From the NCBI GenBank assembly GCA_018268755.1, contig JAFDVW010000018.1, forward strand, positions 121,096 through 185,095: a stretch of DNA of 64,000 nt. The letters are read 5' to 3'. Each line of letters starts with the position of its first letter. Positions within the stretch are counted from its first letter, which is position 1. Below the pieces are notes generated by a model. It had not been told where the DNA came from. It made no database searches and saw nothing but the letters and a program-made list of their open reading frames with translations. The DNA comes from Acidobacteriota bacterium. GTDB lineage: Bacteria; Acidobacteriota; Terriglobia; Terriglobales; Acidobacteriaceae. Below, piece after piece: positions 21,486-24,307 of this stretch. The translations under genes were made by a program, and so were the position numbers.

Positions 21486-22628
21486 CTACTTCGGCTGAGG
21501 ATTGCCCGCCGGCGGCGGCAGATGGGCGCTGAACTGGTCAATCTCCTGCAATCGCTTTTGCGCCTCGGCAATTTCGTTGGGGTCGGAGGTAAGTTTGAGG
21601 AAGGCGCGCATGTGCTCGGCGGCGCCGGGAAAATTCCGCTTCTGCATCAGCACCAGGCCCAACACATAGTCCAGCTTGGCGATGTGGTGCTCACCGTCTA
21701 ATTTGAGGCCCTCGCGCAGGCTCTTTTCGGCCGCATCGAAATTGTGCGCCTGATATTGTCCGGCGCCGTTGTAGTACCAGGCTTCCAGATGACTGACCGG
21801 ATCGAGCGCCAGCAACTTATTGGTGGAATCCACCACGCCAGGCCAGTTCTGCGCCTGCAACGCACAATTCATCAGCCCCAGATACGGGTTGACGTACTTG
21901 GCATCGGCGGCCACCGACTGCTCAAAAGATTTTTGGGCGGAAGCAAAATCATTTTTCTGGAGTTGTACCCGTCCCAGTTCAAACCAGGCCGCGGCGTATC
22001 GGGGATAAATCTGCACCGCTTTTTCCAGGGACTTCCGGGCATCGTCCCATTGCTCTTTTTCAGCCTGCTTCTTGCCCTTTTCCAAAGCCTTTCTGGCCGG
22101 CTCCGGGGCCATCAGGCTAGTAGCACTGATGGTATGGCCCTCAACCGGGGCCAGAGGACGAATCACCACCTGCCCGATGTCCGAATTGGAGGACTCCCGC
22201 GCCCGCAGTCCAAGATGGACCAGCTCGGAGAAAAATCCCGGCAGGACGGCCTGTAGATCGCACTCTTGCAGACTGCGGTTTTCGCCCGTACGGGGGGCCT
22301 GCCCCCCCATGGTGTCGGCATCGGCAAAATCGACATAGGCCGTCGAATCCCGGACGCCGAAGGTAAAGCTGAATCGTCCCCGGCTGTCGCTGTAAGTCTC
22401 GGTGCGCTTCCGGCCGCGGCAGATGGTCTGGATCGCCACCGGCTCGCCCACTTCGCTGCCGTCAGGCAAGACCACTTTGCCGGAGATCAATATGGACTGT
22501 TGGAAGGTCAAGTCCCCGGAACTGGGACTGGGCACGCGCGACACGTTTCCACTGCCGCTATTTCTTACTTGAGACGGCAGCAGCACGGCGGAAAAACATA
22601 GAAGAACGACAATTCCCAGGGCCCTCAT
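21486..22628 (-). CDS. Secreted TPR protein with N-terminal carboxypeptidase-regulatory-like domain
   Basis: This 380-residue exported protein has a signal peptide (MRALGIVVLLCFSAVLLPS). A beta-sandwich at about 45-130 resembles carboxypeptidase regulatory-like domains (ILISGKVVLPDGSEVGEPV, TETYSDSRGRFSFTFG). At least four TPR repeats follow from about residue 180 (KSLEKAVQIYPRYAAAWFEL, QKSFEQSVAADAKYVNPYLG, AWYYNGAGQYQAHNFDAAEK, KLDYVLGLVLMQKRNFPGAA). The protein ends in a short Pro-rich tail. This domain pairing is common in Acidobacteria and points to a periplasmic scaffold. It is the first gene of the minus-strand run towards the PEP-CTERM protein, 281 bp away; that spacer holds no visible gene. 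Confidence 0.82.
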   Translation of the reverse strand: MRALGIVVLLCFSAVLLPSQVRNSGSGNVSRVPSPSSGDLTFQQSILISGKVVLPDGSEVGEPVAIQTICRGRKRTETYSDSRGRFSFTFGVRDSTAYVDFADADTMGGQAPRTGENRSLQECDLQAVLPGFFSELVHLGLRARESSNSDIGQVVIRPLAPVEGHTISATSLMAPEPARKALEKGKKQAEKEQWDDARKSLEKAVQIYPRYAAAWFELGRVQLQKNDFASAQKSFEQSVAADAKYVNPYLGLMNCALQAQNWPGVVDSTNKLLALDPVSHLEAWYYNGAGQYQAHNFDAAEKSLREGLKLDGEHHIAKLDYVLGLVLMQKRNFPGAAEHMRAFLKLTSDPNEIAEAQKRLQEIDQFSAHLPPPAGNPQPK

Positions 22629-22749
22629 ACCGCGTCCCCCAAGACGTGCCCATCATTATAGTCCTCAAAATGCCGGAGAGGGTCGGCGGCAGAGACAAGT
22701 TTCCGGCCCTCTGCCCATCCCGGGACTTCCCTCCCCGCGGCGGCTTATG

Positions 22750-22755
22750 TATACT
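22750..22755 (+). promoter_or_regulatory. TATACT -10 box of the aroF leader transcript
   Basis: TATACT, preceded directly by TG, ends ten bases before the leader-peptide ATG at 22766, so transcription should begin within a few bases of that codon. The -35 region is weak. No Shine-Dalgarno precedes the leader ORF, consistent with leaderless translation. Confidence 0.5.
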
Positions 22756-22765
22756 GGCTTTCCAG

Positions 22766-22861
22766 ATGAGAGCGAACCGCCACTACTTTAGCTTTACCTA
22801 CCGCTACTGGTTTCCGGTAGCGGCTCTGGCGGCGACCTTCGCTTGGCATCGACAGTTCTGA
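22766..22861 (+). CDS. Leader peptide rich in Phe, Tyr and Trp (attenuator of DAHP synthase)
   Basis: This short ORF encodes 31 residues, ten of them Phe/Tyr/Trp. Seven are packed into residues 7-16: HYFSFTYRYWF. The later part is Ala-rich and ends AWHRQF. The ORF starts just after a -10 box and stops 25 bases before a strong terminator in front of a DAHP synthase gene, the first enzyme of aromatic amino acid synthesis. That is the arrangement of ribosome-mediated attenuation, in which shortage of charged aromatic tRNAs stalls the ribosome and prevents termination. The Tyr12-Tyr14 codons coincide with the 5' arm of an RNA stem (22801-22807). The peptide itself is not expected to have a function. 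Confidence 0.8.
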   Translation: MRANRHYFSFTYRYWFPVAALAATFAWHRQF

Positions 22862-22910
22862 TGTAACCAGCGATCAACGTCACAGAAGCCGCGACTTACG
22901 AGTCGCGGCT
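22801..22910 (+). promoter_or_regulatory. Three-stem transcription attenuator upstream of DAHP synthase
   Basis: Four segments give mutually exclusive stems. Segment 1 CCGCTAC (22801-22807) pairs perfectly with segment 2 GTAGCGG (22817-22823). Segment 2, extended to GTAGCGGCT (22817-22825), pairs at eight of nine positions with segment 3 AGCCGCGAC (22887-22895), forming an antiterminator. Segment 3 AGCCGCGACT pairs over ten positions with segment 4 AGTCGCGGCT (22901-22910), forming the terminator. A ribosome stalled around Phe10-Tyr12 covers segment 1 and frees segment 2 for antitermination; one that reaches the stop codon lets the terminator form. Confidence 0.8.
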
Positions 22911-22920
22911 TTTACTTTTT
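22887..22920 (+). terminator. Intrinsic terminator (attenuator stem 3:4)
   Basis: A perfect 10-bp stem AGCCGCGACT / AGTCGCGGCT with a TACG loop is followed by TTTACTTTTT. It lies only 11 bases before the DAHP synthase start codon, so readthrough is required for expression. Confidence 0.92.
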
Positions 22921-22930
22921 GGGAGCATAT

Positions 22931-23848
22931 ATGAACGGCGCCTCGGAACACGCAGGACGAAGTAACGGACAGCTCGCACAGGAAGCAGTTCTCCTTCCCT
23001 CCACCCCGGTCAACGGAAAAACCAAACTTCCCTACCCGCTGGCCCATCGCCAGAACAAAAGCGAACGCACTCTGGTGCAAGTCGGCCCGGTGCAGATTGG
23101 CGCGGGTTTTCCCGTAGTCATCGCCGGACCCTGCTCCGTGGAATCCTACGAGCAGACCTCCGCCACCGCCCACGCAGTCAAAGCCGCCGGCGCGCACATG
23201 CTGCGCGGGGGCGCCTACAAGCCGCGCACTTCTCCTTATGATTTCCAGGGACTCGGGCAAGAGGCGCTGCAGATTCTGGCCACCGTGCGCACGGAAACCG
23301 GACTGCCCATCGTCTCCGAAGTATTAAGCACCGACGACGTCGACCTGGTCTCGGAATACGTGGACATGCTGCAGATTGGGGCGCGCAACATGCAGAACTT
23401 CGCCCTGCTGCGCCGCATCTCCGCCACCCGCAAACCGGTGCTGCTGAAACGCGGGCCCTCGGCCACGGTGAAGGAGTGGCTGCTGGCGGCGGAGTATCTG
23501 CTGGCCGGCGGCAACGAGCAGGTCGTACTTTGTGAGCGCGGCATTCGCTCCTTTGACAGCGATCTGCGCAACACCTTCGACGTGGCCGCGCTGGCCCTGG
23601 CCCGCGAACTCAGCCATCTGCCGGTCCTGGCCGACCCCTCCCACGCCACCGGCCGCCGCGATCTGATCATTCCAGTCTCCAAAGCAGGACTGGCGGCGGG
23701 CGCCAACGGCCTCATCATCGAAGTCCACCCCGATCCCAGCCAGGCGCTTTCCGATGGGCCGCAGTCGCTCGATTTCGCCGGCTTCGCCGCCGTCATGGAC
23801 TCCCTGCGCCACATGTTCCGCATGCATCCGGTGGCGGAGCAGGCGTGA
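22931..23848 (+). CDS. aroF: 3-deoxy-7-phosphoheptulonate (DAHP) synthase, type I-beta
   Basis: The enzyme condenses phosphoenolpyruvate and erythrose 4-phosphate, committing carbon to the shikimate pathway. The 305-residue product carries the type I-beta signatures: [35 protein letters not shown] (PEP/metal site), [47 protein letters not shown] and [14 protein letters not shown]. The N-terminal about 45 residues are unconserved and lack the ACT-like or chorismate-mutase domain that makes some homologues feedback-sensitive, which fits control by attenuation. Ribosome site GGGAG (22921-22925) precedes ATG. A terminator-bearing spacer leads to chorismate mutase. Confidence 0.95.
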
Positions 23849-23965
23849 CCATGAGATCACCGCACCCCGTCCACCACACGGTCTCCTGGCGGCGCGGAGG
23901 TGTGCCCGGACCGGCGGCGGAGCAGCCGCGATGGTCCTGGCCTGACAATTCCACCTTATCCAATT

Positions 23966-24000
23966 CGCCGCGCTTCCCTTTTCGGGGGCGCGGCGTTTTT
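23966..24000 (+). terminator. Terminator between aroF and chorismate mutase
   Basis: The stem CGCCGCGC (23966-23973) / GCGCGGCG (23988-23995) has extra CCC/GGG pairing in the loop and is followed by TTTTT. It lies inside a 52-codon open frame (23851-24007) with three Trp codons that ends directly before the next gene's ribosome site, so it may act conditionally. Confidence 0.85.
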
Positions 24001-24022
24001 CTGTCCTGAGGAAGGGCCCGGC

Positions 24023-24307
24023 ATGGCAAAGAACGTCGCTTTAGGAATGGAAAGACATCGAGAACACATTGACCGCATCGATGCCCGCCTGCTCAAACTG
24101 CTGAACGAGCGCGCCCGGCGCGCGCTGGAGATTGGCCGCATCAAGCGTCACCACAAGGTTCGCCTGGTGGACGCCCGGCGCGAATTGGCCATTTTGCAAC
24201 GTCTGCGGGCCGGCAACCCGGGCCCGCTGGACAATCATGGCGTAGAGGCTATTTTTCGCGCCATTCTGCGGCAATCCCGCCGTTTGCAGCGGAGTGTAGA
24301 GACGTAG
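24023..24307 (+). CDS. Chorismate mutase, AroQ type
   Basis: Chorismate mutase rearranges chorismate to prephenate, the branch point to Phe and Tyr. The 94-residue product is the all-alpha AroQ fold. Its first helix is MERHREHIDRIDARLLKLLN with the conserved I-D-x-I-D-x-x-L-L-x-L-L-N-x-R pattern, then ERARRALEIGRIKRHHKV with the active-site Arg/Lys, and VDARRELAILQRL. The C-terminal helix ends in GVEAIFRAILRQSRRLQ. ATG 24023 is chosen because GAGGAAGGG (24008-24016) is properly spaced; open frame further upstream contains no domain. It follows aroF, so the two make a short aromatic-pathway unit. Confidence 0.9.
   Translation: MAKNVALGMERHREHIDRIDARLLKLLNERARRALEIGRIKRHHKVRLVDARRELAILQRLRAGNPGPLDNHGVEAIFRAILRQSRRLQRSVET

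Follow-up and report, generated by a model that had tools for sequence, protein, structure and literature searches.

Predicted ribosome-mediated attenuator with a Phe/Tyr/Trp leader upstream of DAHP synthase and its homologs at aromatic genes of Acidobacteriota

The aroF locus and its leader region

The analyzed stretch of acidobacterial DNA (64,000 nucleotides, hereafter the window) contains on its forward strand the DAHP synthase gene aroF (22931-23848), whose start codon was assumed to be the ATG at 22931 and which is preceded by the Shine-Dalgarno-like sequence GGGAG (22921-22925). The next downstream gene encodes a type II chorismate mutase (CM_2, 24023-24307) and possibly belongs to the same operon. 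The closest named DAHP synthases are those of Acidobacteria.

Upstream of aroF, also on the forward strand, lies a leader peptide ORF of 31 codons (22766-22861) that has counterparts in related genomes. Its product, MRANRHYFSFTYRYWFPVAALAATFAWHRQF*, includes ten Phe, Tyr and Trp residues, seven of them within residues 7-16, as claimed in the original prediction, which was made from the sequence alone. With aromatic residues encoded by 7 of 10 codons, this leader outranks all other short ORFs of the window (967 in total, both strands), the runner-up having 5.

Four segments on the same strand form alternative structures: (i) segment 1 (CCGCTAC, 22801-22807), which ends with the codons Arg13-Tyr14, pairs with segment 2 (GTAGCGGCT, 22817-22825), (ii) segment 2 alternatively pairs with segment 3 (AGCCGCGACT, 22887-22896) through eight of nine pairs, with a single A:G mismatch, and (iii) segment 3 serves as the 5' arm, and segment 4 (AGTCGCGGCT, 22901-22910) as the 3' arm, of a predicted intrinsic terminator (22884-22920). 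The sequence agrees with the earlier claim that these three stems are mutually exclusive. The terminator starts 22 nt after the leader stop codon, and its full stem has 13 pairs (22884-22913). The T-rich tract that had been described behind it extends up to 22920 and is broken up (TTTTACTTTTT). The folding of the whole region has a z-score of -3.96, and 0 of 200 shuffled sequences were equally stable. All anatomical parts claimed for the leader region are confirmed.

A sigma-70-like promoter is predicted on the forward strand directly upstream of the leader (22727-22755), with a weak -35 box TTCCCT (22727-22732), a 17-nt spacer and a -10 box TATACT (22750-22755). Its score in the promoter scan barely exceeds the 95% null level, and it is absent from the output of a stricter scan. 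Promoter-like sites in the relatives are better, of the form TTGACA N17-18 TATAGT, with the -10 box mostly ending 8-12 nt ahead of the leader ATG. Judging from the usual -10 spacing, the transcript would start within a few nucleotides of the leader AUG and the leader ORF would be translated in a near-leaderless manner; the latter is proposed as a prediction because the best sites upstream of the leaders exceed the 95% null level in about 44% of cases and the site in the window is weak. The promoter-like site of the window lies ahead of the leader and not downstream of 22870, where a transcription start would have been at odds with the original prediction.

The window DAHP synthase has the PF00793 domain only and is devoid of the ferredoxin-like FXD domain, in line with the earlier statement that the enzyme lacks a regulatory domain. 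This feature is not general: the DAHP synthase of one relative behind the same attenuator carries the FXD domain, and the N-terminal domain was observed, by motif and by reading, in most of the 59 aroF products encoded behind the attenuator, about seven being without it. The absence of an allosteric domain is thus a local state outside the design of the attenuator. Since most aroF products keep the N-terminal domain, attenuation would add to, rather than replace, the control through this domain in most species.

The spacer separating aroF from the chorismate mutase gene (23852-24001) includes a short ORF, MRSPHPVHHTVSWRRGGVPGPAAEQPRWSWP, with three Trp and no Phe or Tyr codons, followed by a second terminator hairpin with a T tract (23966-23995). 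This ORF and hairpin could be a further attenuator or could have arisen by chance; none of eight relatives checked shares the gene order of the window at this place.

Conservation and covariation upstream of aroF orthologs

The query was matched in all 200 sampled genomes of the family of the window, and about 54 genomes were listed with the ortholog group, at 61-73% identity. Most aroF orthologs (about 50 relatives) are preceded by an aromatic leader ORF and then by a hairpin of the type AGCCGCGA...TCGCGGCTTTT, located mostly 21-35 nt past the stop codon. Homologous upstream regions without conserved leader ORFs, which would have argued against the original prediction, are therefore not what is found. 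Upstream of the two aroF paralogs in the window's own genome, no aromatic leader or hairpin was seen.

Two alignments were analyzed: A1, with 48 sequences ahead of aroF orthologs, was built without structure, and A2, with 100 sequences, was fitted to a covariance model; the aligned sequences share kinship, and the counts below do not represent independent events. Covariation in the three stems had been proposed as a check, and its outcome differs between the stems. In the terminator, 95.8% of the A1 cells are standard pairs, six pairs are changed on both sides, and there are 44 double-change cells, a number reached by 0 of 500 shuffles. In the model-fitted alignment A2, distal pairs of the 1:2 stem show changes of both partners in 6, 15 and 14 of the 100 sequences; in the unfitted alignment this stem is imperfect in about one-fifth of the cells. 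For the 2:3 stem, double changes on A1 showed no excess over shuffles. Covariation is weak here because the antiterminator core GCGGC:GCCGC is nearly invariant, being retained in 42-48 of the 48 sequences. Segments 2 and 3 of the same species nevertheless pair better on average than segments swapped between species (p = 0.0016).

The components characteristic of an attenuator were found in these regions: a short aromatic ORF, whose translation is suggested by codon conservation, a 1:2 protector hairpin over the control codons (imperfect in a minority of species), an antiterminator competing for the 5' arm of the terminator (with a conserved core and little covariation), and an intrinsic terminator between the leader and the first structural gene.

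Two further observations concern the leaders of the relatives. Unusually constant nucleotides near the leader start in A1 and A2 form an octamer, CGATTTAC (Arg-Phe-Thr) or CGATTTAG (Arg-Phe-Ser), that recurs in the majority of the leaders of aroF and chorismate mutase, some of which have two copies, and is absent from the window. In one leader (L112:1084-1238), TGA replaces the TGG (Trp) codon of the relatives, and the peptide stops at the last control codon; this leader appears to be a natural variant of the attenuator switch.

Model of the stalled ribosome

To describe the switch, we modeled a transcript ending just ahead of segment 4 and a ribosome whose footprint extends over 13 nt, beginning with the A-site codon. 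Averaged across 98 leaders, the probability of 2:3 pairing, P(2:3), is 0.95-0.97 with the A site 10-24 nt ahead of segment 2; it falls to 0.47 at 7-9 nt and reaches 0.00 once the A site is at 6 nt or further along. Aromatic codons match these stall-permissive positions: they account for 34-80% of the codons across the plateau and 87% at 7-9 nt, but for no more than 5% starting 3 nt ahead of segment 2. In the window, P(2:3) is 0.999 from Phe10 to Tyr14, 0.72 at Trp15 and 0 at Phe16. A stall at Phe10-Tyr12 had been proposed to mask segment 1; the model agrees and makes the permissive stretch slightly wider, Phe10-Tyr14, with Trp15 marginal. Footprints of 12 or 10 nt leave this picture unaltered. 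When the ribosome is left out of the model, P(2:3) still averages 0.28. Thermodynamic folding cannot decide a kinetic switch. When the window leader was recoded synonymously 400 times, its switch amplitude was matched by 6 recodings and the stability of its 1:2 region by 3.

Both the model and the conservation support the logic of trp and phe attenuators that had been suggested for a mixed Tyr/Phe/Trp leader at the entry enzyme of the pathway. Very probably, the window element controls DAHP synthase as a ribosome-mediated transcription attenuator, with charged tRNA-Phe, tRNA-Tyr and tRNA-Trp as the sensed signals. We infer its start site, ribosome stalling, termination and response to starvation as follows. 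Transcription would begin just ahead of the leader ATG. A shortage of any of the three charged tRNAs would stall the ribosome at codons 10-14 (perhaps 15), where it would hide segment 1 and leave segment 2 free; segments 2 and 3 would then pair before segment 4 is synthesized, no terminator would form, and aroF would be transcribed. When all three are plentiful, the ribosome would proceed and cover segment 2, or segments 1 and 2 would pair after its release; with segment 2 occupied, segments 3 and 4 would pair and transcription would end near 22910-22920.

Homologous elements upstream of other aromatic genes

With a covariance model built from A1 (R1; match threshold E <= 0.01), the element was detected in 165 of the 300 genomes tested within the family of the window and in 35 of the 297 tested across the phylum, including many genomes without the aroF ortholog group. 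In the window's own genome, the search with E values up to 10 found only the aroF copy, the rest being at noise level. One 31-bit match (L288) was discarded as it has no aromatic leader.

Downstream sequence was available for 98 of the 100 members of A2, the other two being at contig ends, and all 98 precede aromatic genes. The downstream genes were identified by motif as aroF (53), trpB (22), chorismate mutase (10), aroK (8) and pheA (3), and by reading as one further aroF and one further chorismate mutase (L025, L264); representative downstream proteins were confirmed with Pfam. Some genomes have multiple copies, for example ahead of both aroK and trpB in G147 and G127. The attenuator reading of the original prediction is borne out, and the element is found to belong to a family placed before five or more kinds of aromatic genes, which had been missed there.

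The codon content of the control region differs between the branches. None of the 70 codons in ten chorismate mutase leaders encodes Trp, whereas the share of Trp codons is 10% for aroF, 11% for aroK and 17% for trpB (Fisher p = 0.0006 for the absence, a test that ignores kinship). The lack of Trp fits the pathway, in which chorismate mutase leads only to Phe and Tyr. Probably, the elements upstream of the five or more kinds of aromatic genes in Acidobacteriota form one homologous family of trivalent (Phe/Tyr/Trp) attenuators, with codons tuned to the branch and mRNA starting at or within a few nucleotides of the AUG, and the family acts as a main regulator of aromatic synthesis in the phylum. 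It offers a natural experiment, in which one attenuator has been re-tuned per branch, with no Trp codons at chorismate mutase and Trp codons kept at aroF, aroK and trpB. The covariance model could become a family entry.

Case by case, aromatic leaders with a similar layout and unrelated stem sequences were observed ahead of DAHP synthase at five loci (L059, L061, L077, L079 and L196) of other acidobacterial lineages and one Gemmatimonadota genome, which suggests a repeated or very old origin. At the Gemmatimonadota locus (L061), the leader is accompanied by a terminator and by competing segments whose sequence is unrelated.

Other aromatic leaders upstream of DAHP synthase were seen as well. 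Two loci of another acidobacterial family (L194 and L195, f14) combine runs like YFYFYYFY with two tandem terminators of different sequences. Outside Acidobacteriota, an aromatic leader ORF occurs in a WOR-3 genome (L054), and long aromatic leader ORFs with a common motif like FYWGFYFFSAGFF, some of them followed by a terminator, occur at five clostridial loci (L071, L074, L075, L076 and L082). The clostridial leaders are a different and seemingly conserved element; the stall model applied to them did not find a clear switch.

Alternative explanations

The attenuator may respond to Phe and Tyr alone, with incidental Trp codons. This variant, compatible with the preferred explanation, draws on the marginal permissiveness of Trp15 in the window and on the Phe-Tyr-Phe codons of the Corynebacterium glutamicum aroF leader. 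However, 37-39 of the 42 Trp codons of aroF leaders occupy permissive positions under the three footprint assumptions, and the distribution of Trp codons among the branches described above (p = 0.0006, kinship ignored) also argues against it; we regard it as possible but rather unlikely.

A second explanation treats the leader ORF as a working small aromatic peptide and the terminator as the mere 3' end of its gene. The ORF is conserved in many species, and trans-acting leader peptides exist, such as peTrpL of Sinorhizobium (PMC7298713). However, the peptide is not conserved past segment 2. The core of this segment is read in different frames in the relatives: of 99 leaders, 65 have its end in reading phase 1, 26 in phase 2 and 8 in phase 0 (approximate counts, as a few leader choices were later revised), so that some peptides contain VAA where others contain SSG. 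Because the reading frame of segment 2 differs between species, with all three frames in use, its conservation is at the RNA level. Between the start codon and segment 2, aromatic codons make up 35% in the leader frame versus 6% and 11% in the other frames, and framed aromatic codons followed by conserved RNA would be what an attenuator requires. Moreover, the element sits exclusively at aromatic genes, and the long ORF upstream of it in the window (21486-22628) is on the opposite strand. A peptide gene of this kind is very improbable.

It is likewise highly unlikely that the leader governs aroF translation through sequestration of the ribosome-binding site rather than transcription. Although the window terminator ends immediately ahead of the Shine-Dalgarno sequence of aroF, this sequence is not a part of the hairpins, the terminator is far upstream of the gene start in many relatives, and a T tract follows the hairpin in nearly all of them.

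T-box and protein-bound (TRAP-like) attenuators control aromatic genes in Firmicutes, but such an element is hardly conceivable here, as the conserved part contains a translated ORF with framed aromatic codons and Rfam searches revealed no relevant family, either in the window at a permissive threshold or in 16 relatives' loci at the gathering threshold, where nothing except tRNA was found and families including T-box, Trp_leader and Phe_leader did not reach the gathering score.

Comparison with known attenuators

The transcription attenuator proposed here uses a mechanism that is itself classical. The enterobacterial trpL, pheL and pheM attenuators, which share the 1:2 / 2:3 / 3:4 logic, each sense one amino acid and head one operon; to our knowledge, they do not represent one homologous element common to several branches, whereas the acidobacterial element is homologous across branches. 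In the multivalent attenuators of ilvGMEDA and ilvB, a single leader senses several end products, as is predicted here, but the products are branched-chain rather than aromatic amino acids. An attenuator of DAHP synthase was proposed long ago in Escherichia coli.

In a survey of 2010, attenuators were predicted in Acidobacteria, but hardly any was linked to a function (PMC2965389); a concrete and testable aromatic regulon is now available for this major soil phylum. The original prediction had named no described case in Acidobacteriota, and our literature search, with most subscription journals outside its scope, likewise found no earlier description of an aromatic attenuator in this phylum.

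In Sinorhizobium meliloti, the Trp operon leader peTrpL/rnTrpL has its ORF at or near the transcript 5' end, as in the acidobacterial element; the 5' end was mapped there and is predicted here (PMC7298713). The uORFC-13-1 motif of Acholeplasma, a proposed DAHP synthase attenuator with 24 examples from one genus and environmental sequences, similarly places a uORF with at least one Phe codon before aroF and next to a terminator; it differs, by its description, in having no described regulon (PMC8632094).

The closest known case, likened by function and codons as given in the papers, appears to be aroR-aroF of C. glutamicum, in which a leader peptide with Phe-Tyr-Phe codons precedes DAHP synthase and mediates ribosome-dependent transcription attenuation (Neshat et al. 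2014, as presented in PMC11802643 and PMC4046766). The acidobacterial element shares this arrangement of aromatic codons before DAHP synthase. Unlike aroR, which in these accounts has Phe-Tyr-Phe only and is reported at aroF in Actinobacteria, it mixes Phe, Tyr and Trp codons, and its homologs are found before chorismate mutase, aroK, trpB and pheA as well. Apparently, the new points are the phylum, the trivalent leader, and the spread of one homologous attenuator over a regulon.
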